64,000 nt of DNA, from assembly GCF_014356525.2 (NCBI RefSeq), contig NC_052515.1, forward strand, positions 17,644,531 to 17,708,530, read 5' to 3'. This document shows, piece by piece, positions 3,001 to 29,899 of this stretch. Position numbers and translations under genes: made by a program. Position 1 is the first letter of the stretch. Every line of letters begins with the position of its first letter. The notes under the pieces are model-generated. The model saw only the letters and a program-made list of their open reading frames with translations, did not search any database and was not told the origin of the DNA. The stretch comes from Nilaparvata lugens. Lineage: Eukaryota; Arthropoda; Insecta; Hemiptera; Delphacidae.

Positions 3001-5329
3001 CATTTTTCTATATTGTTTTTCTTAATTCCATACTTCTTTCCTTCCATACCAATACTCCTTCGGAACGTGTTTTCTCTTTTTCTCATTTGATTGCATTTTA
3101 CGTTTCCCATTCTCTTCACTTGCTCATCATCCTACTTAACCATGTATTCTCCTATTTTCTGTACCTACCTCATGTTTCTACCTCTTTTACCTACTAGCCT
3201 CTCACTTATACCGGCGCTACATTCCATGAAGAACCTTCGCCTCCTCCACTATTTCCCTGCAATATTTTGTTGTCTAACATACTAGCTAGTATTACTTCAA
3301 AAGTGATGGAACTCACTATTACTAAACATCATAAATGTTGAATATACGATATATGAAATATGTTTAATCGTAGGCTACGTTTTGTTTCACTTCCACTTTA
3401 ATCTTGCATCTCACTACTTTGTGTGAGAAAAATCACTCCTATGTTTTTGAAGAAATCAATGAATCACATGATAAATGAAATGGATGAATTACTATCACGG
3501 GGTTCCCGTTTTTCCCAATCCTAAAAACATTCCACTGCCCCAGGACATCACTTCCTCTGCCTTTTCCTTACCTCCTCTTTCTTCATCCCATTCATTTCCT
3601 CTACCCTTCCTCCACAAATTCTCACTATCTCGCAGGTCTCCTCACCCTCACCCTCTCTCCTTTCTTCTCGAGGCAACCCTCTGTCCAAAAAATCGCCAAA
3701 GTTCCAGACTTGGATCAGAAAGCGTAAACGTTCCTTGAATTCCGATCGCCGATTGCGATGGCTGAAGGCTATCAATCTACTCAACAAACAAAGATTGACT
3801 GCGATTTCCCGACCAGATTTTCCTCACCATTCTCTACTCGTTTTCTTGGTTTTTCAGAAATTTGTAATTGTATGATGGTTTGCTTCAGAAATGAATATGA
3901 ACACCATGTAGGGTGGATGAGTGTTTGAGTTTATTTCAAGCAAGTTTTCCGATAATAGAGATTTTAAAAAAGTAATAGAGTAAAGATTGAAAGTAATAAA
4001 TATAGAAAATAATAGTACCTTTTTTAAAAATCACCTTTCACTATTTTTTTCGAAAAATAAACTTCTCGAATTAAAAAAATCATTGAATACTTTTTATGAT
4101 TTAACGTTTATGATTTATAACGTTTTTTTAAAGTGAAAAAAGATGATTCTAAAGAAGATACTTTTTCTATTTCATTTCCATTACTGAATGTAGCCGTTGT
4201 TATTCAAAATGAGTCACTAATAATTCATGTATATCAACAATATCAAATCAGAATAGACAATGAAAATCACACCATTCATGGAAACCACAATAAAATAGAA
4301 AGAGACTTTTATTCTCTTTAAACTCACTACATTCATGAAAATTTATCGTATGGTGATTGTCTTTCTAAGATTAAAGACAAAATAATGTATTTCCGTCTTA
4401 TTCATTCACCTCTTCCTATTCTATATCATCCTATTTTCATCCTCCTGCTGTAACTTCTCCTCCTCATCCTCCTTTTTCTCTTCCTCTTTCGCCAACTCTT
4501 TATCTTCCTCCTTTCCTCTTCCTAATAATCCTCCTCTTCCTCTTCCTCTACCACCAGTATCGTTCTTCTTCTCCTTCCCCTCCTCCACCTCCTCAACCTC
4601 ACACTCCAACAGACTTTTGAGGGTTGATTGAATTCAGCTCAACATGTAAGTAGCAGTGACCGAACACACTGTGGGGTTGTTTATTGTGTGTTTGGGAAAG
4701 ACGAGTGAGGGCTGAGTTTTGGTGGAAGGCTCCTGGGGGTGGAAGAGAGTGAAGCTGAGGGGTGGTAGGCGGAGGTTGAGTAATGAGGATGGTGTCGTAT
4801 AGGGAGCAAGTTGCCGAAGAAAAAGTAAATAAACTCTGAGCCTTTCGGTGTGCATTCTAATCTCATTATTCGCCACCTCCTCCTCTTACTCCTTCTCCTC
4901 CTCCTCCTAATTTTTCACCGAGGGGTTGCAGCAAGAATTCATCCGAATTCATCGGCGACGAGCTAATGAATAAATGAACCGTTCAGTGACTGTGACAAGT
5001 TATGAATAAATAGAGGGTAGCATTTAAAGGGTTGTACCTGTCACACCGCTTTAGGCGCACCCTATTCAATAACAGTTGACCTAGTGAGTCCGATATTTAT
5101 TCTTGTTAGTTGTTTTAAATGAATGAGATTCGTGAGTTTGTTTAATTTATTCTGATTCTGAAGAGAATGAGTTAGTGATATATGATTATCCTGTAAAGTA
5201 CCTTTATTTTTATAAACTTCCTCCTGATCATGAACAAGAACCTGAATATGTATATGAATCTGTTCATGAAAATGTACTTCCATTCTTATAAAGTTGATCT
5301 TCTACACTCTTGTCAGCAGTATTGAGATA
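1..5329. other. Non-coding stretch, no gene seen
   Basis: I see no reading frame with recognisable protein similarity. The short open frames are low-complexity products of pyrimidine-rich tracts (about 1255-1340, 3540-3670, 4400-4600) or their complements. A tRNA B-box-like string (GGGTTCAAGTTC) occurs near 1776 but has no foldable tRNA around it. If the third Phox2 exon lies left of the window, this stretch is part of Phox2 intron 2; that is inference. Confidence 0.6.
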
Positions 5330-5344
5330 TCTATATATAAAAGC

Positions 5345-6935
5345 TCTGAGTAGATTTTTGCCCACACCTTTCTCTATCAGAGTTCCCAGTGTCGCTCTGG
5401 GCCGGCTAAACTCAGTCGGCGACTGGGGAGGGCCGCGGCAGGGGACGGGAGTCTTGGTGGGGCGTCCGTCAACCACCCTCGCTCGGGTTGGGGGTTGAAA
5501 CAGGGTTTTGAGCGCTTTGGAGGAATGTTTCCCTCTTTTAGGATAGAGGGGCCGTGCTTTCGCACTGCCAAACAGGGTTGGTCGCGGAAAGAAGGGAACA
5601 GGAACCTTACGGTGTTAGTCGTGAGAAAGGGTTTCGTGCCGGGACTAAGTCCTAGTCCTTGGGCACCGGGTGTCTTCCGGGGTCCGGGTTGGTTGCGGAG
5701 CTCTGGTAAAGGCTTTCCCTGGCCTTCCCAGAGGTCCTCTTCCGGTTCCGCACTGGTTTAGTGCGCTGCGGCGCCCCGCGCTCTGGACTTTCCTGAGTCC
5801 TACTTGCCGGACACCAGCTGTCCTCCTGGGGTCCGGATCGGCCGCGGAGTGGCGGGAAAGGCTTTTCCACACCTTCCCAGATGTCCTCTTGCGATCCCGC
5901 ACGGGACTAGTGCGCTGCGGCGGCCAGCACTCTGGACTTTCCTAAGTCCTACTTGCCGGGCACCAGCTGTCCTCCTGGGGTCCGGATCGGCCGCGGAGTG
6001 GTGGGAAAGGTTTTTCCACACCTTCCCGGACGTCCTCTTGCGATCCCGCACTGGACTAGTGCGCTGCGGCGGCCAGCACTCTGGACTTTCCTAAGTCCTA
6101 CTTGCCGGGCACCAGCTGTCCTCCTGGGGTCCGGATCGGCCGCGGAGTTGCGGGAAAGGCTTTTCCACACCTTCCCGGACGTCCTCTCGCGATCCCGCAC
6201 TGGACTAGTGCGCTGCGGCGGCCAGCACTCTGGACTTTCCTAAGTCCTACTTGCCGGGCACCAGCTGTCCTCCTGGGGTCCGGATCGGCCGTGGAGTTGC
6301 GGGAAAGGCTTTTCCACACCTTCCCGTACGTCCTCTTGCGATCCCGCACTGGACTAGTGCGCTGCGGCGGCCAGCACTCTGGACTTTCCTAAGTCCTACT
6401 AGGTTTTTCCACACCTTCCCAGATGTCCTTTCTCGCCTCGATGCCCCACTGGTGGCCTACCAATGGGGAGTCAGGTTTCGACCAAACCTGACGTGTTGTC
6501 GTTGGTCGAAACTGGCAACCCGTCGTCCAAACAGGTTAAGTGTCGTTCAACACTCGCCCAAACGAGTGTAGAGCAGTGGAGTTCACTGTGTGAGAGGCTA
6601 ATCGACTTTAACCTCGACACAACTCCCGGTCGCTGAAGGAATCGGAGTTCACTTAGTACTGGTGTACTGTGACGTTGCTAGCTGCTCGCTGCTTCCTTCT
6701 CACCTCTCTCGACCGCTCGACTTGGCTCTCCGAACTCGACTGCCTCCTGCTGGCCTTTCTCGAGCCTCCCTCAGTGACAGAGAGGGAGGGGAGAGAGGAT
6801 GCGCAGCATCGCTGAGCGGTAGGCCAGTGGCTGGCTTGAACGTTGACCCCTCAGATTCTATGAAAGATAGCCGAGCGTCGAATAAATGAGCCCTAAATTC
6901 AATTCCTTTCTCTAGTTACGATATACATCGTGACA
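5345..6935 (-). repeat. 3' LTR of the retrotransposon
   Basis: On the + strand it starts TCTGAGTAGATTTTTGCCC and ends ATACATCGTGACA, so in element orientation it begins TGTCAC and ends CTCAGA. At 1591 bp it is one 149-bp unit longer than its partner at 13114-14556. By eye, outside the repeat number there are only a few differences, such as C/T at about 5640 and one inserted C near the CCGGGGTCC string. It contains one hairpin unit of the internal array type at 5551-5568. Confidence 0.9.
5792..6400. repeat. 149-bp tandem repeats inside the 3' LTR, four full units
   Basis: The anchor CCTRAGTCCTACTTGCC recurs at 5792, 5941, 6090, 6239 and 6388, an exact 149-bp period. The first unit is the most divergent (CCTGAG, GGACACC, CACGGGACTAG). 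Each unit contains small perfect hairpins: GGACTT/AAGTCC with a 4-nt loop, and CGCAC/GTGCG with a 7-nt loop. Since 149 is not a multiple of three, the long open frames across the array shift between units and are not a conserved protein. Confidence 0.93.
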
Positions 6936-7202
6936 CACTGTTCCTACTAAGGGAAGGGGGGGGAAAAGAGAGGGGGAGGAGAGGGGGGGGTGAGGATGGA
7001 AGGGGTAAACGGCAGACAGAATGTCCCAAATGCCTGAGTACATTCTGCCGCCTCTCCGCCGGTCAACATAGACCGAACATAAACTGGGCGCCAGGTTGGT
7101 TCCTCGCCAACCGGTGGTGATGCGTCGGCACCATCCGAAGAAATGAGCAAGCTACCCGGCCAGATCCTAGGCCCAGCTTCAGAAAAGATCTTGAAGACCT
7201 GC
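6936..7202 (-). other. Interior segment next to the 3' LTR, with a purine tract on the + strand
   Basis: The + strand carries an almost pure G/A tract at 6951-6990. A polypurine tract priming plus-strand DNA would be expected on the element's sense (minus) strand immediately upstream of the 3' LTR, but there the tract reads as pyrimidines. The rest has no recognisable coding. Confidence 0.6.
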
Positions 7203-7566
7203 GCCGTGCTTTCGCACTGCGTTGAGACGCCGTGTTCGCACACTGCAAGAGACCGCCGTGCTTCCGCACTGCGATGGGGGACGCCGTGCTTTCGCACTGC
7301 AAGAAGCGCCGTGCTTTCGCACTGCAAAGGACCGCCGTGCTTCCGCACTGCAATGGGGGACGCCGTGTTTGCACACTGCAAGAGGCCGCCGTGCTTCCGC
7401 ACTGCGATGGGGGACGCCGTGCTTTCGCACTGCAAGAAGCGCCGTGCTTTCGCACTGCAAAGGACCGCCGTGCTTCCGCACTGCAATGGGAGACGCCGTG
7501 TTTGCACACTGCAAGAGGCCGCCGTGCTTCCGCACTGCGATGGGGGACGCCGTGCTTTCGCACTGC

Positions 7567-7652
7567 CAGGAAGGGCGGGTAACACAAAAAAAAACGAGGT
7601 GAACAACACCTCAGACAGGTTCTGAGAACCTAAATAACATTGCAAGGGAAAC
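7567..7652 (-). repeat. Inter-block spacer with a GAGGTG/CACCTC hairpin, copy 1
   Basis: The spacer shares CGAGGTGAACAACACCTC, CAGACAGG and AACATTGCAAGGGAAAC with the second spacer at 7909-7990. It includes a 6-bp perfect stem with a 5-nt loop. The duplication shows that hairpin blocks were copied together with their spacers. Confidence 0.75.
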
Positions 7653-7908
7653 GCCGTGCTTCCGCACTGCAATGAGTCGCCGTGCTCTCGCACTGCAAAA
7701 ATAAGGACGCGGTGCTTGCGCACTGCAAAAGGAACGCCGTGCTTTCGCACTGCCCGGGGCGCCGTGCTTCCGCACTGCCAGGAACGCTATGCTATCGCAT
7801 CGCGAAAAGGACGCCGTGCTCCCGCACTGCAGAGTTGCCGTGTTTCCACACTGCCGAGGACGCCGTGCTTCCGCACTGCAGATGAGAGTCGCGGTGCTCT
7901 CGCACTGC

Positions 7909-7990
7909 CAGGAGGGGCGGGTGACACAAAAACGAGGTGAACAACACCTCAGACAGGCTCTGGGAACCCAAATAACATTGCAAGGGAAAC
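7909..7990 (-). repeat. Inter-block spacer with a GAGGTG/CACCTC hairpin, copy 2
   Basis: This is a near-identical copy of 7567-7652 lying between hairpin blocks two and three. Small differences include CAGGCTCTGGGAACCC against CAGGTTCTGAGAACC. Confidence 0.75.
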
Positions 7991-8256
7991 GCCGTGCTTG
8001 CGCACTGCATGTGCCGGGCTTTCGCCCTGCATGGCCGTGTTTTCACACTGCCTTGCTTCGCCGTGCTTGCGCACTGCATGTGCCGGGCTTTCGCCCTGCA
8101 TGGCCGTGTTTTCACACTGCCTGCTTCGCCGTGCTTGCGCACTGCATGTGCCGGGCTTTCGCCTGCATGGCCGTGTTTTCACACTGCCTTGCTTCGCCGT
8201 GCTTGCGCACTGCATGTGCCGGGCTTTCGCCCTGCATGGCCGTGTTTTCACACTGC

Positions 8257-10435
8257 CTTACTTTCCAGCATCAGACAGCTGGAATGAATCTCCAACACGA
8301 CCAGGAACTCGTCGTGGTCTCAGCAATAGTCAGCTGAGATACAGCTCCAATAATTCCAGGAGCTCGTCGAGGAAGTAGACTCAAGTTGCAGTCTCCATCC
8401 TCAAGAAGAAACGTGATACAAAACCATGTAACACTTCACAGGAGGCAGAAGTTGATAGAGGTGAATTGGAGTCCAGGGAAAATTACCAAGTGTCAGCATG
8501 ATGGATACTCTCAGTTAGTTCAGTGTATCAGCAACTTATTGTTCACAATAAAATATGAGAGATGATAATATGATGAGGAATACTGAATTATATGGTTGAC
8601 ATGAAGCCACTAGTTGTGATGTTACACCACATATTTCGATTTTATATCACAATTAGATGTGGTCGAAATAATAATTCATCTTCGATCTGGTATGAGGATT
8701 ACAGCCTTCTCACTATATCACCATAATAGAATCGAAAATATAAATTTCAACTCAATATTCCACTTCTCACTGATCATTTCAATAATGAAATCAATCACAT
8801 GATTTACTTATGCAAAGTAACCATCCATTGGATATAAATGACAATGTGTTTATTATAACAGACAAAATCTGCTAATTAATTCACAATCAGTGAACATTTA
8901 TTGCTCAATCTCTCTTTCTCACTTCAAGACTTATTTCACCCCGAAATAAATCTTAATTTACTTTTTCAAAGTAATTATTCACACAAGGCGTGTATAATGA
9001 CACAACAGCTGTTAATTAATTCACACTCAGTAAATATTGATTTTCCGAAAAATAATCACAACAATCAGCACAAATAGTAATAATTGAATGAATTAATGCA
9101 CCGTCAATAATAACTCATGATGGTAGGCTGAGTAAGAATTAGATTCACTCTCGAGACGTGATCTAATTCCAAAACTAACAATAGCACGATCTAACACAGA
9201 CTGACTCAATAACAGTAGAATATCAGGAAAAACTAGAATTCTCATGAATTCAATTTTATAAATTGTTATTGAAAAGGAGAAGTAATTCTCTTCTACAGAC
9301 TAGAAGCTTGGCGATAGCAGTTAGCCAGTTGAGATAACGTTTATCTTATCTGTACAGCACAGCACAAACAACTTTTCGATCCAACATAGAATCAATTCTA
9401 ATTGAAATAATAATTATTTTATTCCAATTTATAGTAAGTCCTCCGACTTTATTTTCAAGTGAAATATTAGAAAATTTAAATCATAATCTGAAGCTAATAA
9501 CCCCCGATTGTAGTACATCTCGACTCACAATCAAACGCAATTTATTCATTCCACATGAATAATTAATTGCAACGTAATTCACTTTTATCCCACAGTATAA
9601 AAACGTCTGTTAATTAACTGCACCGTAACACTTTACACGGATTAAAGCAATTACCACCAGCTTCATTAAATGATTTCAATTATTATAACCATTACCTCAT
9701 GGTTAAAATATTATTCGGATCACACCGATCTATAATATCTTCTAATATTCTCTATCCACTCATTTCGCCATCATCTATTTATGGCAAATAGAAAACAGGC
9801 TACTGCAAGTTTTGTTTGTTAACCTGTACCTGGTTACAACAATATCGGTAACATACCGATCAATAAAATTTAGTCTAGTTGGAATCGATTTTAGCTGTTA
9901 TTAACTAGTCATAGACTGTAGAAAATTTTCCTGATTATCCTTGCTTGGTCACATCTTAATATTGTAAATAAATTTCAATCTGAAATTATTGGGATTGCCT
10001 TCAGATCAAAAGAAACGCAATGATTTGTCAATAATAATTTTCTTCCATTTAATCCAGCCAGTGCTTTATGACTGATTATATTAATTAAACTGTAATGGTT
10101 GAGTTGCCATTTAGTTTAAGTAGAACTCTATTTTATGAGAAAAATTAAACGGAATATGCTGTTTCCTTTTAACAAACTATTGACCAATTTCTTTCAATAA
10201 CAATAATATTGTCAGTCTTTTAATATTTTCATCATTTTCGGAATCGTGCTAATGCTATCTTCAAAATTCGGCTAATAGATTCATGCTAATAATTCTGAAT
10301 TAATTTTCTTCAATTTCTATACAATTTTGTCTTTGATAACAAAATTTTATTTCCTCATTTTAAATGGGATAAAATATTAATCAGAAATAGCTCTAAAGCT
10401 GTGATATGATAGAACTCTATAATATTCACCCCTTC
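8257..10435 (-). other. AT-rich non-coding block inside the LTR element
   Basis: No open frame of useful length occurs on either strand. Base composition changes abruptly from the GC-richer Gag side (above about 10440) to strongly AT-rich sequence. A motif close to TTAATTAATTCACAATCAGT recurs (about 8873 and 9011). The block occupies the place where pol 3' or env coding would lie in a complete element. It could be a decayed remnant, captured DNA or a nested insertion; I could not find clear insertion boundaries. Confidence 0.6.
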
Positions 10436-10450
10436 TCGCCTCTTACCTCC

Positions 10451-10990
10451 TTATTGGCGGCGCGTGACACCTCTCTGGTATCCCATCCTCCGGATAGGCA
10501 GCGACCCTCTATGGACTCGCTCGGTCTCCTGCTGTCCATCCGCTCGGATACCGTCCACCTTTTCCGCAACTTCTCCATCACCATCCTCTTCCTCATCTTC
10601 GGGCAGGTGTGGCTGGAGCTTGGTGCCCTTCTCGTGCACAGTAAACCTCTTACCGGCACTCAACATTTTCTCGACCTCATAGAGGCCAGAAAATTCCGGC
10701 GCTAACTTCGCGGCAAGCTGATTAGCACCCGAGGACAGGTGACACTCCTTCCTGTAGACTAGCTGTCCAGAGTTCACCTTCCTTGTCCTCCTTTTCCAAT
10801 TATAATACCGGTTGGCATTATAATTCTTGTCTCCAACATCTGAAACTACTTTGAGTGTAGTTTCCAGCACCGGCAGTCTTCTAGACTGCACTACTTGACG
10901 ATTATCTCCAGCTCCTTGCTGAAAATTATCCTCCTTCTTCCGCCTCCGGTACCGCTTTTCCGGACAGTTGAACCTCCAGTGCCCAGCTCG
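10451..10990 (-). pseudogene. Integrase C-terminal tail of the LTR element, out of frame with Gag
   Basis: The frame encodes NRYYNWKRRTRKVNSGQLV and then KLAPEFSGLYEVEKML. Both resemble the end of Gypsy-type integrases, where a basic stretch and a GPY/F-like module follow the catalytic core. No catalytic core, RNase H or reverse transcriptase precedes it. Upstream in the same frame, just before about 10990, are the remaining residues (GHW...C) of a second CCHC zinc knuckle. The first half of that knuckle (CWHC) is in the Gag frame, so one base has been lost at about 10982. The tail ends in an acidic stretch (DEEEDGDGE). A large in-frame deletion of pol is the simplest explanation. Confidence 0.7.
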
Positions 10991-13065
10991 TTACAGTGCC
11001 AGCAAATGAACTTTCCACGGGCTGGAGAAATTTTCTGAGAAAGAAATTCCTCTTTTCCAGTCTTCCACACGGCTCCTACGTGTTTCTGGACTTGAGGAAA
11101 TTTCTTCTTCTCCTGCTTCTTCACAGGAATAATTCCAGGTGGCTTCCTTGACCTCCCTATGTCAGGCTGGGTTTTAACAGTAGCCAGCCTCGAGTTGACA
11201 GCTCCTTTTCCCACTTTTGGAGTGGAAATATCGTCTCCAATGTGCTTTTTGACGAGATGAGGATCCCATTCCACTGACCGGGAATAGGGGTCTATTTTCA
11301 CCCGGTGCTCACGAAGAAACTCCATACCAAGCAGAACATCTGGAGAAAGCCCATCCATTATTGTGAGTGTTGTTGATAGGGATATTCTGCCCATTTTCAG
11401 GTTGGTTATAACATCACCTCGCAGTCGTGCAGCCGCTCCGTTAGCCATAACAGCGCCGCGCTGCACAGGCTCTCGTTCCACTGCTTCCAAACTATTAAAA
11501 GCTTTAGAGCTAATATAGTTGGACTCTGCTCCGGTGTCGAGAAGAGCACTATACTGTCTGTCTCCTATTTTCACTATAGTGAAAAGACGGTTGTCATCCT
11601 GGAGCTCTGGCTCTAGCTGGATTTGAAGCCTCGTTTTAACCACTGCTGTTTTATCAGAAGTCTTCTTCTGCTCTCTCTCACAGGAACAATTGGGTCGAGG
11701 CTTCCCACACTTTGAGCAGAGTGAAGCCTCCGGACACTCTGATCTCCAGTGTCCCACCTTCTTGCACTGCCAACACACGGGGCCTTCTGGAGGTTGTTCA
11801 CTCCGACGCCGTGTAGTAGTAGTCTCCTGTCGAGGCTTGGTCTGCTTCCTCACCTCCTCCTGCTTCACAGCTCGTTGTCTCTGTTGAGCACTCTTCTCCT
11901 CGAATTTAATTCGTTCATATTGTCTCGCTAAGTGTAGCAAGTCGTCGGTGTTGTACACTTCAGCCTCCCTGATGTAGAGCTTGTAGCGTGGTAAAAGATT
12001 TTTGTACAATCTCTGTACCTGGCTACTCTCTGAAAAACCACCTCTTCTCCTCATCAGCGTTAGCAGCTCCTCAACATAGTCGTCTATGAGCTCGCCTTCT
12101 TTCTGCCGCCTGTCGAGAATTTCATTCTCAAGATCCTCCACATAAGTAGGTGGATAGTAACGAGACCGAAAGTCTCTCAGGAAATCGTCCCAGTGTCTCC
12201 ACTGTTCTCTCCTATTCCTCATCCATAAGGAACATTTCCCCGCTAACATTTCAGGTAGCGCTGGAAATAACTGTCTGCCAGACAAGCCATATGCTTGTTG
12301 CAGCTCCTCGAGCCGCTCCATAAAACTTGGAGCATCTCCACTCCCATCATATGAGAGCCGCCACCCTCGAACCTTGTCACACACGGCACCCGGGTCCATA
12401 CAGGATGTAGCAGGCACCGCTGACCTGGTAGGTGACCTCAACACATGCCTAGGCATGTTATTATGCCTCTCCGGCATCTCCGGCCTCACTAGCGCAGGCT
12501 CTGCCTCCTCGCTAACTGGTGCTGGCCTTCGCGCTCTTCGACGAAGCGCCTCCTCCCCATTATCCAGAACTGGGAGCATCGCAACAATCCGCTGTCGTTG
12601 CTCCAGTAGAGCCCTCCTCAGGCTCGTACTTGTGCTATCTGTCAGCACTGAGTCGAGTAGTAGATCAATCAAGCCTTGATCGTGCACTCTGTACACCCAG
12701 GAGTTGCTGGAGTCTCCATCAAACTCTGGAGACGTCTCCTTGGGTATTTCTTCCAGTCTGGAACATGCAGTGGCCTCCGCGACTGGTGGCCACAAAGCTG
12801 CAGCTCCTTCCTCTTCCTGACCTGTGCCAGCTCCGCCACCGATCCTGTTTAGACCGGCGGCCTCCACCATTGTCCTCCGGTGGTTTTCGACAAGAGCTCT
12901 CCTGAGCTCTGCCATGGTACCTGTTGTAGGTAGCCCTGCTGATGCTGCTAGATCCACTGCTTCATTCCGGTGGAGTTTGTAAATCCAGGACACTCCTGGA
13001 TCGCTGTTATCCTCTCGCGCCTCCTGGTCTTCTCCGGCGCGATTACATTTCTCTTCTGCACTCAT
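10891..13065 (-). CDS. Gag-protease polyprotein of the LTR retrotransposon
   Basis: I start the 724-residue protein at MSAEEK, just inside the interior; the same frame stays open into the LTR up to 13245. Domains in order: two related SAP-like motifs at residues about 26-62 and 122-158, both with W-[IV]-Y-[KR]-x-H, DL and LRRAL; a retrotransposon capsid-like region at about 232-390 (WDDFLRDFRSRYYP, LPRYKLYI); a CCHC zinc knuckle at 431-444 (CWQCKKVGHWRSEC); a second Cys-rich motif at 450-462; and a retropepsin-like protease at about 497-600 with the catalytic DTGA at 510-513 and VLLGMEFL. It would build the particle shell, bind RNA and process itself. The C-terminus is altered by a one-base loss inside another zinc knuckle at residue about 688, so the natural end differed. 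Confidence 0.88.
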   Translation of the reverse strand: MSAEEKCNRAGEDQEAREDNSDPGVSWIYKLHRNEAVDLAASAGLPTTGTMAELRRALVENHRRTMVEAAGLNRIGGGAGTGQEEEGAAALWPPVAEATACSRLEEIPKETSPEFDGDSSNSWVYRVHDQGLIDLLLDSVLTDSTSTSLRRALLEQRQRIVAMLPVLDNGEEALRRRARRPAPVSEEAEPALVRPEMPERHNNMPRHVLRSPTRSAVPATSCMDPGAVCDKVRGWRLSYDGSGDAPSFMERLEELQQAYGLSGRQLFPALPEMLAGKCSLWMRNRREQWRHWDDFLRDFRSRYYPPTYVEDLENEILDRRQKEGELIDDYVEELLTLMRRRGGFSESSQVQRLYKNLLPRYKLYIREAEVYNTDDLLHLARQYERIKFEEKSAQQRQRAVKQEEVRKQTKPRQETTTTRRRSEQPPEGPVCWQCKKVGHWRSECPEASLCSKCGKPRPNCSCEREQKKTSDKTAVVKTRLQIQLEPELQDDNRLFTIVKIGDRQYSALLDTGAESNYISSKAFNSLEAVEREPVQRGAVMANGAAARLRGDVITNLKMGRISLSTTLTIMDGLSPDVLLGMEFLREHRVKIDPYSRSVEWDPHLVKKHIGDDISTPKVGKGAVNSRLATVKTQPDIGRSRKPPGIIPVKKQEKKKFPQVQKHVGAVWKTGKEEFLSQKISPARGKFICWHCNELGTGGSTVRKSGTGGGRRRIIFSKELEIIVK

Positions 13066-13088
13066 TGCTGTTTTACTCCTCCTGCCTT

Positions 13089-13110
13089 GGGCCCCACGTT
13101 CGTGTGCCAA
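13089..13110 (-). other. Possible tRNA primer-binding site of the LTR element
   Basis: Read on the minus strand, TTGGCACACGAACGTGGGG begins a few bases inside the 5' LTR edge, where a primer-binding site belongs. It resembles the TGGCGCCCAACGTGGGGC type seen in some insect LTR elements. I cannot assign the tRNA. Confidence 0.5.
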
Positions 13111-13113
13111 TCT

Positions 13114-14556
13114 TCTGAGTAGATTTTTGCCCACACCTTTCTCTATCAGAGTTCCCAGTGTCGCTCTGGGCCGGCTAAACTCAGTCGGCGACTGGGGAGG
13201 GCCGCGGCAGGGGACGGGAGTCTTGGTGGGGCGTCCGTCAACCACCCTCGCTCGGGTTGGGGGTTGAAACAGGGTTTTGAGCGCTTTGGAGGAATGTTTC
13301 CCTCTTTTAGGATAGAGGGGCCGTGCTTTCGCACTGCCAAACAGGGTTGGTCGCGGAAAGAAGGGAACAGGAACCTTACGGTGTTAGTCGTGAGAAAGGG
13401 TTTCGTGTCGGGACTAAGTCCTAGTCCTTGGGCACCGGGTGTCTTCCCGGGGTCCGGGTTGGTTGCGGAGCTCTGGTAAAGGCTTTCCCTGGCCTTCCCA
13501 GAGGTCCTCTTCCGGTTCCGCACTGGTTTAGTGCGCTGCGGCGCCCCGCGCTCTGGACTTTCCTAAGTCCTACTTGCCGGGCACCAGCTGTCCTCCTGGG
13601 GTCCGGATCGGCCGCGGAGTGGTGGGAAAGGTTTTTCCACACCTTCCCGGACGTCCTCTTGCGATCCCGCACTGGACTAGTGCGCTGCGGCGGCCAGCAC
13701 TCTGGACTTTCCTAAGTCCTACTTGCCGGGCACCAGCTGTCCTCCTGGGGTCCGGATCGGCCGCGGAGTTGCGGGAAAGGCTTTTCCACACCTTCCCGGA
13801 CGTCCTCTTGCGATCCCGCACTGGACTAGTGCGCTGCGGCGGCCAGCACTCTGGACTTTCCTAAGTCCTACTTGCCGGGCACCAGCTGTCCTCCTGGGGT
13901 CCGGATCGGCCGTGGAGTTGCGGGAAAGGCTTTTCCACACCTTCCCGTACGTCCTCTTGCGATCCCGCACTGGACTAGTGCGCTGCGGCGGCCAGCACTC
14001 TGGACTTTCCTAAGTCCTACTAGGTTTTTCCACACCTTCCCAGATGTCCTTTCTCGCCTCGATGCCCCACTGGTGGCCTACCAATGGGGAGTCAGGTTTC
14101 GACCAAACCTGACGTGTTGTCGTTGGTCGAAACTGGCAACCCGTCGTCCAAACAGGTTAAGTGTCGTTCAACACTCGCCCAAACGAGTGTAGAGCAGTGG
14201 AGTTCACTGTGTGAGAGGCTAATCGACTTTAACCTCGACACAACTCCCGGTCGCTGAAGGAATCGGAGTTCACTTAGTACTGGTGTACTGTGACGTTGCT
14301 AGCTGCTCGCTGCTTCCTTCTCACCTCTCTCGACCGCTCGACTTGGCTCTCCGAACTCGACTGCCTCCTGCTGGCCTTTCTCGAGCCTCCCTCAGTGACA
14401 GAGAGGGAGGGGAGAGAGGATGCGCAGCATCGCTGAGCGGTAGGCCAGTGGCTGGCTTGAACGTTGACCCCTCAGATTCTATGAAAGATAGCCGAGCGTC
14501 GAATAAATGAGCCCTAAATTCAATTCCTTTCTCTAGTTACGATATACATCGTGACA
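13114..14556 (-). repeat. 5' LTR of the retrotransposon
   Basis: This 1443-bp LTR matches 5345-6935 almost base for base but has three full 149-bp units instead of four. It starts TCTGAGTAG on the + strand and ends ATCGTGACA, followed by the target duplication AAGC. A hairpin unit identical to the internal array consensus lies at 13320-13337. Transcription of the element should start in this LTR on the minus strand; I could not define a TATA box. Confidence 0.9.
13562..14021. repeat. 149-bp tandem repeats inside the 5' LTR, three full units
   Basis: The anchor CCTAAGTCCTACTTGCC recurs at 13562, 13711 and 13860, with a truncated start at 14009. The variant first unit of the 3' LTR (GGACACC type) is absent here. 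Confidence 0.93.
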
Positions 14557-15100
14557 AAGCGAAATGGCACTTACTCACTGACTGACTGACTGACTGACTG
14601 ACTCACTCACTGGCAGAACTAAAAATCTACCGCACCAAAAAAGTTCAAATTTGGTAGGTAGACTATGTTCAGTTGGCCCTTTAGAGGCGCACTAAGAAAT
14701 TTTTTGGCGATATTTTAACTCTAAGGGTGGTTTTTAAGGGTTTATAGTTCGTCTTTTAGCATGTATATTTTTCTTATTCCCATATCTTAAAATTATAATT
14801 GAAATGTCCATACCATTTATGTTAATATAGAACTATAATCTAGAGAGAGTACCTCTTCGAAACAGTTGTTCTGGTAACTAAATTAAAAATTTGGTCAGGT
14901 TGGCATTAAGTTGAGTTGACTTTGTTAGGTTTGCACCAAGTTGAAGATTGAAATGCATTTATCCAGGACCTCCTAAATACCAATTTTATTTAACCAGTAC
15001 CTCCTAGATACCTATTTAGGAGGTCCTGATTTATCGCAGAAAAAATTATTGGGTACTGCTACTTCAATCAAAGCTATTCCTGGGAATATTATATCACTAG

Positions 15101-27661: not shown

Positions 27662-27884
27662 CCTAGGGCCGAAAATGGGACTTTTCTGGCTCGAAATCGG
27701 TTTTCAAGTCCGAGGCCGTAGGCCGAGGACTAGAAAAGATTGAGAGCCGGAAAAACATTTTTGCCCATGGTGAGAACGTTATTTTTCGCCACACAGGAAA
27801 ATAAACAATATATATATATATATATATGAGAATAATTGTCTATTATAAGCACTTCCGAAAGCAAAAGTGGAAGGTAATAGCTCT

Positions 27885-29899
27885 AGGAGGTTTGAGGTTA
27901 GATTCTATTATACTCTGAAAATTGAATTTGAATAGTTTATAATATCTCATTATTTGTATTTCATTCATCCAAATAAAATGATAGTATATTATTACAGAAT
28001 ACTTTATTGAATTCTAAAAGCATAAAATGATTCCGTTTATCCACCATGTTCCATGATAAACGCTGTACTAGGAGGTTTGAGGTTAGATTCTATTATACTC
28101 TGAAAATTGAATTTGAATAGTTTATAATATATATCTTATCTGTATTTTATTCATCCAAATAAAATGATAGTATATTATTACAGAATACTTTATTGAATTC
28201 TAAAAGCATAAAATGATTCCGTTTATCCACCATGTTCCATGATAAACGCTGTACTAGGAGGTTTGAGGTTAGATTCTATTATACTCTGAAAATTGAATTT
28301 GAATAGTTTATAATATCTCATTATTTGTATTTCATTCATCCAAATAAAATGATAGTATATTATTACAGAATACTTTATTGAATTCTAAAAGCATAAAATG
28401 ATTCCGTTTATCCACCATGTTCCATGATAAACGCTGTACTAGGAGGTTTGAGGTTAGATTCTATTATACTCTGAAAATTGAATTTGAATAGTTTATAATA
28501 TATATCTTATCTGTATTTTATTCATCCAAATAAAATGATAGTATATTATTACAGAATACTTTATTGAATTCTAAAAGCATAAAATGATTCCGTTTATCCA
28601 CCATGTTCCATGATAAACGCTGTACTAGGAGGTTTGAGGTTAGATTCTATTATACTCTGAAAATTGAATTTGAATAGTTTATAATATATATCTTATCTGT
28701 ATTTTATTCATCCAAATAAAATGATAGTATATTATTACAGAATACTTTATTGAATTCTAAAAGCATAAAATGATTCCGTTTATCCACCATGTTCCATGAT
28801 AAACGCTGTACTAGGAGGTTTGAGGTTAGATTCTATTATACTCTGAAAATTGAATTTGAATAGTTTATAATATATATCTTATCTGTATTTTATTCATCCA
28901 AATAAAATGATAGTATATTATTACAGAATACTTTATTGAATTCTAAAAGCATAAAATGATTCCGTTTATCCACCATGTTCCATGATAAACGCTGTACTAG
29001 GAGGTTTGAGGTTAGATTCTATTATACTCTGAAAATTGAATTTGAATAGTTTATAATATATATCTTATCTGTATTTTATTCATCCAAATAAAATGATAGT
29101 ATATTATTACAGAATACTTTATTGAATTCTAAAAGCATAAAATGATTCCGTTTATCCACCATGTTCCATGATAAACGCTGTACTAGGAGGTTTGAGGTTA
29201 GATTCTATTATACTCTGAAAATTGAATTTGAATAGTTTATAATATATATCTTATCTGTATTTTATTCATCCAAATAAAATGATAGTATATTATTACAGAA
29301 TACTTTATTGAATTCTAAAAGCATAAAATGATTCCGTTTATCCACCATGTTCCATGATAAACGCTGTACTAGGAGGTTTGAGGTTAGATTCTATTATACT
29401 CTGAAAATTGAATTTGAATAGTTTATAATATATATCTTATCTGTATTTTATTCATCCAAATAAAATGATAGTATATTATTACAGAATACTTTATTGAATT
29501 CTAAAAGCATAAAATGATTCCGTTTATCCACCATGTTCCATGATAAACGCTGTACTAGGAGGTTTGAGGTTAGATTCTATTATACTCTGAAAATTGAATT
29601 TGAATAGTTTATAATATATATCTTATCTGTATTTTATTCATCCAAATAAAATGATAGTATATTATTACAGAATACTTTATTGAATTCTAAAAGCATAAAA
29701 TGATTCCGTTTATCCACCATGTTCCATGATAAACGCTGTACTAGGAGGTTTGAGGTTAGATTCTATTATACTCTGAAAATTGAATTTGAATAGTTTATAA
29801 TATCTCATTATTTGTATTTCATTCATCCAAATAAAATGATAGTATCTTATTGCAAAAACTTTATTCAATTCTAGAAGCATAAACTGATTCCGTTTCATA
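27885..29899. repeat. 185/186-bp satellite array, eleven units
   Basis: Units beginning AGGAGGTTTGAGGTTAGATT start at 27885, 28070, 28256, 28441, 28627, 28813, 28999, 29185, 29371, 29557 and 29743. Two variants alternate. A is 185 bp with ATATCTCATTATTTGTATTTC. B is 186 bp with ATATATATCTTATCTGTATT. The order is A B A B B B B B B B A, and the last unit is diverged and truncated. Units are otherwise almost identical, so the array expanded recently. No coding. Confidence 0.97.

Follow-up and report, generated by a model that had tools for sequence, protein, structure and literature searches.

A tandem array of hairpin units with paired stem changes and GNRA loops in an apparently non-autonomous LTR retrotransposon of Nilaparvata lugens

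Background

The closest described systems are plant LTR retrotransposons of the Tat, Ogre and Retand groups, which carry tandem arrays between the coding region and the 3' LTR; the function of these arrays is given as not known in the main texts of PMC3305785, PMC11963269 and PMC7004042, one of which describes a soybean Tat-type array with up to 149 repeats per locus. Here we analyse an array in a comparable position in an insect genome, in which the repeated unit is a small hairpin. A tandem array in an insect LTR retrotransposon has a precedent in the gypsy insulator, where tandem Su(Hw) sites lie before gag and are read as duplex DNA by a zinc-finger protein, while repeated use of small hairpins brings to mind retroviral packaging signals such as HIV-1 psi, in which several hairpins of different kinds lie close to the 5' end. 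Our literature searches, which mostly covered papers outside subscription journals, turned up no publication describing covarying hairpin arrays in retrotransposons.

Results

The element

The window, that is the whole 64,000-nucleotide stretch of Nilaparvata lugens DNA that was analysed, contains an LTR retrotransposon on its minus strand with the following parts.

13114..14556, minus strand: 5' LTR, 1.4 kb, with four copies of a 149-bp repeat (repeat and LTR-LTR alignment)
10891..13065, minus strand: gag-protease reading frame with Retrotrans_gag, a CCHC knuckle and an aspartic protease (ORF list and Pfam)
10451..10891, minus strand: short ORF, integrase C-terminus-like by eye, with no Pfam match
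8260..10450, minus strand: AT-rich stretch that has no listed ORF of at least 100 aa on the element strand
5345..6935, minus strand: 3' LTR, 1.6 kb, with five copies of the 149-bp tandem repeat (repeat and LTR-LTR alignment)

The order on the minus strand is 5' LTR, gag-protease, short ORF, AT-rich stretch, array (8256-7203), pyrimidine-rich tract and 3' LTR. The preliminary description had called the element an LTR retrotransposon with its array in the non-coding part before the 3' LTR. Both claims hold, two LTRs flanking a gag with a CCHC knuckle and an aspartic protease. The LTRs align with each other at 96.9% over 1142 nt and at 98.3% over 906 nt, two alignments that overlap because of the tandem repeats, and a candidate 4-bp target duplication, AAGC, can be read in the flanks at 5341-5344 and 14557-14560. 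By eye, each 149-bp LTR repeat carries hairpins of the GCACT-GGACT-AGTGC and GGACTT-TCCT-AAGTCC types. A polypurine run on the plus strand at 6949-6990, just before the 3' LTR, is a polypyrimidine run on the sense strand of the element, and we saw no clear sense polypurine tract near the 3' LTR by eye. Elsewhere the window contains an unrelated satellite-like tandem repeat of 186 bp at 27883-29895 (10.8 copies, 98% match), as well as a paired-type homeodomain ORF and LINE-like ORFs that were recognised by eye.

The short ORF resembles an integrase C-terminus when judged by eye. It is separate from gag-protease in the window element, whereas in the relative L037 the two are in one frame. In the window element the ORF list, which covers intact frames of at least 100 aa, contains no reverse transcriptase, RNase H or integrase, and in L037 there is no further ORF of at least 150 aa in the 5.1 kb around gag. 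The element is therefore a gag-pro, apparently non-autonomous one, which we infer from its gag to be of the Ty3/Gypsy type. In a gag search of the same genome, 62 of 3,065 candidates were scored, all 62 at 90-100% identity (window copy included), which marks this as a successful family. A search for homologues of the gag gave one protein, with 31% identity over 33% of the query, among 7,997 candidates scored.

The hairpin unit and its array

On the gag strand (minus), 7203-8256 comprises 36 units, 35 of 18 nt and one of 17 nt at 8150-8166, in which a 1-nt deletion shortens the stem and the loop is GAAA. Together with single units in the two LTRs they are arranged as follows.

13320..13337, minus strand: one copy of the unit, GCAGTGCGAAAGCACGGC, within the 5' LTR and some 200 nt upstream of the LTR end
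7991..8256, minus strand: array part 1, twelve units, with a repeated three-unit block GTGT/ACAC, GGGC/GCCC, GTGC/GCAC; includes the 8150-8166 deletion unit
7653..7908, minus strand: array part 2, ten units, one of which is GCGATGCGATAGCATAGC at 7786-7803
7203..7566, minus strand: array part 3, fourteen units, with a 133-nt higher-order period
5551..5568, minus strand: single hairpin unit in the 3' LTR, identical to GCAGTGCGAAAGCACGGC

On the sense strand the unit reads GCA-GUGC-GNRA-GCAC-GGC, with pairs 1-18 and 2-17, a mismatch at 3-16, pairs 4-15 to 7-12 and a loop at 8-11. The inner stem has four Watson-Crick pairs in 35/35 full units, of the types GTGC/GCAC (23 units), GTGT/ACAC (8), GGGC/GCCC (3) and ATGC/GCAT (1). 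The outer two base pairs are likewise formed in 35/35, so that every full unit has all six pairs, and the mismatch between the outer pairs and the inner stem is A.G in 32 units, A.C in two and G.A in one. The loop is GNRA in 34 of the 35 full units, the exception being GATA at 7786-7803, and with the GAAA of the 17-nt unit this agrees with the 35 of 36 counted previously. The preliminary description had taken the unit for a 4-bp stem with a GNRA loop; the inner stem and loop stand, and the unit is longer, two outer pairs and one mismatch having been missed, as had one unit in each LTR and two interruptions of the array (7567-7652 and 7909-7990), which contain other hairpins. An Rfam 15 search of window positions 5000-15000, with E up to 1, gave a single sub-threshold match at 6958-7060, outside the array.

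Copies across the genome

The main form of the unit has 5,610 + 5,672 = 11,282 exact matches in the 1.085-Gb genome, and a reversed control pattern has 0. For comparison we collected 622 units from nine arrays, window 7203-8256 included (611 units before L071 was added). The collection took units with up to five mismatches to the main form, which means that strongly broken units and strongly diverged but paired ones are both undercounted. The arrays have 11 to 194 counted units, several being cut by the stretch fetched, and this range suggests that no fixed unit number is needed. In L065, L069 and L070 the stretch fetched has no array, and among viral contigs the unit pattern occurs once each in four contigs, with no array. 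Very diverged units that are fully or nearly fully paired, for example GCTGTGTGCAAACACAGC and GCAGAGCGCGAGCTCTGT, were seen in corresponding places on the minus strand of L067:1-3001 and L063:1-6001. Spacers of 5-14 nt (n=412) are 78% C or T after the first base. A coding role was considered, the array being open in several frames, and was rejected: unit spacings fall into all three classes modulo 3 in eight of the nine arrays (the ninth, with 10 spacings, has two classes), and therefore no reading frame runs through.

Paired changes in the stems

The pairs of the stem differ in how they vary among the 611 units.

Pair 1-18: G-C 575, G.T 15, other 21
Pair 2-17: C-G 578, T-A 13, other 20
Pair 4-15: G-C 551, G.T 28, A-T 17, other 15
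Pair 5-14: T-A 529, G-C 65, A-T 2, T.G 1, other 14
Pair 6-13: G-C 604, G.T 1, other 6, with no paired change
Pair 7-12: C-G 486, T-A 107, T.G 14, other 4

The earlier statement that three of four pairs covary is correct for the window, while over the nine arrays it becomes four of six pairs, with 6-13 lacking a paired change. In the 622 units all two-sided stem changes (207/207) form a standard pair, as do 37/37 among the 116 distinct types; when the partner is slid by 1-3 columns, the pairing counts are 34/68, 18/33, 2/4, 0/16, 3/8 and 8/10. Because double transitions always pair, the pairing of doubles is by itself weak evidence and it is the number of two-sided against one-sided changes that counts, although the T-A to G-C and T-A to A-T stem changes are transversions on both sides. 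At the closing pair 7-12 the 622 units include 110 with T-A, 1 with C.A and 14 with one-sided T.G (in the main form, GCAGTGTGNRAGCACGGC). Genome-wide, the paired GTGT/ACAC form, with closing T-A, occurs 1,659 + 1,637 = 3,296 times and the one-sided C.A form at the closing pair 18 + 26 = 44 times.

The arrays have a heavy block structure, with 69-nt and 133-nt higher-order periods and a block order common to different copies. With their range of sizes, this is what would be expected of an ordinary minisatellite, changing size by recombination or strand transfer, in which a few ancestral paired types were spread by block duplication with no function, and the plant Ogre/Tat arrays, in the texts of PMC3305785 and PMC7004042, offer a parallel with no known function. 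Since blocks are duplicated, relatedness is the main worry, and we therefore simulated neutral genealogies, letting units free of constraint evolve along coalescent trees. Each run had 300 units (the data have 622), and 400 runs were made at each of three mutation rates. Paired doubles make up 0.60 of all stem departures in the data, a share reached in 0/1,200 neutral runs (means 0.03-0.10). Four pairs with common paired doubles occurred in 0/400 runs at matched diversity and in 4/400 and 37/400 at the two higher rates, and four covarying pairs together with equally few broken pairs in 1/1,200 runs. A low share of broken pairs alone was reached by 51, 22 and 9 of 400 runs at the three rates.

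Block duplication is thus extensive, yet presumed orthologous units in different subfamilies differ by paired changes, orthology being assumed from block order and spacers: the first unit of the three-unit block is GTGT/ACAC in the window and in L061 and GTGC/GCAC in L063. The outcome that would have refuted the preliminary reading, all variants going back to a few duplicated blocks with no paired changes of independent origin, is thus not what is seen. In one unit of an old block that several subfamilies share, a G.U pair in six rows is A-U in L063. Within related elements the stem GTGC/GCAC has changed to GTGT/ACAC, GGGC/GCCC, ATGC/GCAT and GAGC/GCTC. Pair-preserving substitutions beyond relatedness, as in structured cis-acting RNA, are therefore found in the compared units, against the neutral runs and in the genome counts. 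The suggestion that the paired changes go beyond plain minisatellite decay is borne out, and they exceed what relatedness plus mutation gives. The neutral genealogies, the excess of T-A doubles over C.A singles, the orthologous differences and the depletion of broken pairs in amplified types described below all weigh against the ordinary minisatellite, which we regard as quite unlikely. Plain minisatellite decay explains the array poorly, and selection on a folded strand would explain it better.

Old and young changes

Unit types found in at least two arrays comprise 15 paired doubles, 9 G.U singles and 2 broken, against 15, 25 and 39, respectively, for types seen once. The broken-pair share is thus 2/26 in shared types and 39/79 in once-seen types (p = 1e-4), or 28/66 in the latter when four frame-shift-like types are left out (p = 0.001). 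Types repeated within one array only comprise 4 paired doubles, 3 G.U and 8 broken, and these 8 come from three frame-shifted types. The count omits types with more than 4 stem differences (4/116) and units more than 220 nt from the next, the LTR units among these. The contrast suggests that pair-breaking mutations arise freely and are seldom passed on.

The loop behaves in the same direction. It is GNRA in 579/622 units, in 34/38 shared types against 52/78 single-array types (p = 0.01), and one amplified loop type, GACA, is non-GNRA. Loop position 9 is A, G or C, with T in 2/622 units, a bias that a free N position would not show.

In the old block, L064 and L063 differ at 2/120 stem sites and 9/91 spacer sites (p ~0.01), and L064 and the first copy in L067 at 1/96 and 8/87 (p ~0.01), while the degraded second block copy in L067 has 10/118 and 12/91, no difference. 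A variable-column test over the old block gave p = 0.09.

The LTR unit is the same in all of 26 distinct copies; the alignment has 27 rows, the window's element appearing twice (L031 is that same element). Over the 435 nt compared there are on average 10.1 changes per 18-nt window, and the longest stretch free of change, 32 nt, includes the unit. Change-free 18-nt windows number 35/418 and form four blocks, of which one is at the presumed primer-binding region. The alignment took 26 of 30 gag loci, L033, L044, L046 and L050 not aligning over 380 nt (for L033 and L044 the part that aligns lies wholly downstream of the unit). The LTR unit is also identical in 35/35 rows of another comparison, a figure that we do not use because L001, L003 and L004 were collected by the unit itself.

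Folding and other hairpins

When base-pair span is restricted to 18, the array folds with z = -9.4 on the sense strand, 0/40 shuffles being as good, and with -9.5 on the opposite strand; unrestricted folding gives z = 0, with 5/10 shuffles as good, because each 5' arm is able to pair with the 3' arm of every other unit. Global fold energy, being no better than shuffles, was dropped as proof of structure. The predicted hairpin potential is real and local, but it is equally present on the opposite strand, so that folding energy by itself gives no guide to the strand.

We also considered G.U pairs as a guide to the strand. The excess of G.U in units was dropped as support for RNA: the frequent G.U states sit at CpG sites with an unpaired G and are transitions at these sites, and decay of CpG may account for them. 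A CpG-free wobble test at pair 6-13, using reverse-complement contexts genome-wide, was neutral, with 28 C13>T (G.U on the sense strand) and 21 G6>A (A.C on the sense strand), p = 0.39, in copies that are scattered and probably post-insertion.

The interruptions of the window array carry two further kinds of hairpin.

7956..7968, minus strand: second hairpin kind, G.U variant GGTTC-CCA-GAGCC
7934..7950, minus strand: third hairpin, second copy
7618..7630, minus strand: second hairpin kind, GGTTC-TCA-GAACC, in an array interruption; it covaries across arrays
7596..7612, minus strand: third hairpin, GAGGTG-TTGTT-CACCTC

The main form of the second hairpin is present in 17/24 copies, the other forms being GCTC/GAGC and GCCC/GGGC and the G.U forms GTTC/GAGC and GCTC/GGGC. 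Its inner four pairs are kept in 23/24 copies and its outermost pair is lost (A.C) in 6/24; the inner pairs show three G.U and no A.C intermediates. Its sequence is unrelated to the main unit, and on these alignments its covariation is independent of the main unit's sequence.

Discussion

Paired changes could also arise in one step, if synthesis in DNA replication or reverse transcription switched template within a quasi-palindrome and rewrote one arm from the other. The array would then be a neutral minisatellite with stems that correct themselves. Such a mechanism is described for RNA hairpins and genes and gives paired substitutions, according to PMC8794818. The units are palindromic and arranged in tandem, a setting in which slippage and switching are to be expected, and a one-step process would leave all two-sided changes paired and one-sided ones scarce, as is found; folding energy shows no strand preference, and 24/622 units pair through all seven positions, some of them amplified, for example GCGGTGTGGGAACACCGC. 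Template switching should, however, repair a stem mismatch, yet 596/622 units keep a non-standard 3-16, mostly A.G (26/622 lack the mismatch), and it persists even in the GCGATGC..GCATAGC type, where the neighbouring pair has changed, although the GTC..GAC type is paired there. Inversion of the loop would be expected sometimes, yet the count of sense-strand T..C loops is 0/622. Conservation of the loop G, R and A, the contrast between old and young types and the invariant LTR unit are left unexplained. We think it unlikely, though deserving of some weight, that template switching accounts for the array.

It is also conceivable that the palindromes are duplex-DNA sites of a dimeric protein, forming an insulator or enhancer array like the gypsy Su(Hw) sites, which are a known parallel for a tandem protein-site array in a retrotransposon. 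The half-site, on the other hand, varies freely (GTGC, GTGT, GGGC, ATGC, GAGC) while complementarity is kept, and the loop is asymmetric and constrained, so that we consider duplex sites very improbable.

Selection on a folded strand is, in our judgement, probable. Sequence alone does not distinguish RNA from plus-strand DNA, and the RNA form is our inference. Hairpins of single-stranded plus-strand DNA might instead be selected during reverse transcription, strand transfer or integration. DNA hairpins with a GNNA loop and a C-G closing pair are very stable too, whereas T-A closing pairs weaken DNA loops. Here T-A closing pairs are common (110/622), all units except 8/622 have a purine at loop position 10, as RNA GNRA loops need, and the G.U intermediates of the second hairpin suit RNA. 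Selection on plus-strand DNA is accordingly given a low probability.

Hairpin geometry, paired evolution, the scarcity of pair-breaking among transmitted types and an invariant LTR unit are direct observations, and we tentatively propose the following account of them, to which we give somewhat less than an even chance as a whole. The sense strand of the element, most likely the genomic RNA, would form repeated small hairpins, whose shape (stem pairing and GNRA loop, with pyrimidine-rich linkers) would be kept by selection on replicating copies. Since the unit occurs singly in the LTR and in many copies towards the 3' end, we consider a multivalent site likely, the LTR unit and the 3' array together acting as a platform for one ligand. 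The likeliest ligand would be the CCHC-knuckle Gag of the element or of a helper; given selection on a folded strand, a role in Gag binding and packaging has about an even chance. Among the roles named in the preliminary description (packaging, dimerisation, export or translation), packaging would be the one favoured by this account. Gag would bring the RNA of an element that seems to have no reverse transcriptase of its own into particles; such an element depends on being taken up by them, and multivalency would strengthen capture. Alternative ligands would be a host RNA-binding protein or other array RNAs, as any 5' arm pairs with any 3' arm. A more specific version, in which a family with gag but no reverse transcriptase of its own multiplied an LTR hairpin into an antenna at the 3' end, its GNRA hairpins numbering up to nearly 200, is possible but on the unlikely side. 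The antenna would be a polyvalent RNA ligand, selected for shape and not for sequence, through which the element competes for Gag particles or condenses its RNA. If the antenna reading were true, it would represent a new class of retroelement cis-signal, naturally evolved and resembling engineered RNA-tagging arrays. If the array captures Gag, this would explain how elements that have no reverse transcriptase compete for particles, and the array would be a natural counterpart of the engineered hairpin arrays used for RNA tagging.

Comparison with known systems

The gypsy insulator shares with the present array a tandem arrangement in an insect LTR retrotransposon; the gypsy sites, however, lie before gag and act as duplex DNA, not as hairpins. 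Whereas psi consists of a few different hairpins near the 5' end, in the present element a single type recurs dozens of times towards the 3' end. Packaging signals belong to the 5' leader or LTR, and of the units described here one, invariant, is in the LTR and most are at the 3' end. Retroviral packaging signals with tetraloop stem-loops, of HIV-1 psi and others, as presented in PMC5198506 and PMC7395439, nevertheless resemble the array in that small sense-RNA stem-loops and a CCHC-knuckle Gag occur in both. Template-switch hairpins, as treated in PMC8794818, explain paired substitutions and predict repaired mismatches and possible loop inversions, unlike the array, with its 596/622 mismatched units and no inverted loop.

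The likeness to the Tat, Ogre and Retand elements is one of layout: an array before the 3' LTR whose length varies among copies, interleaved repeat families and thousands of genomic copies, while the ORF list of the window element includes no reverse transcriptase, of the Tat lineage or otherwise. The word hairpin does not occur in the main texts of PMC3305785, PMC11963269 and PMC7004042, whereas the array described here consists of hairpins that covary and keep one class of loop, with the unit found also once in the LTR, and the genome is that of an animal. Tandem repeats close to the 3' LTR have long been known as repeats with no function assigned; in those described here it appears to be the fold that is kept and not the sequence, and this in thousands of copies within a single genome, so that a function becomes testable and compensatory evolution can be followed in a large natural data set.
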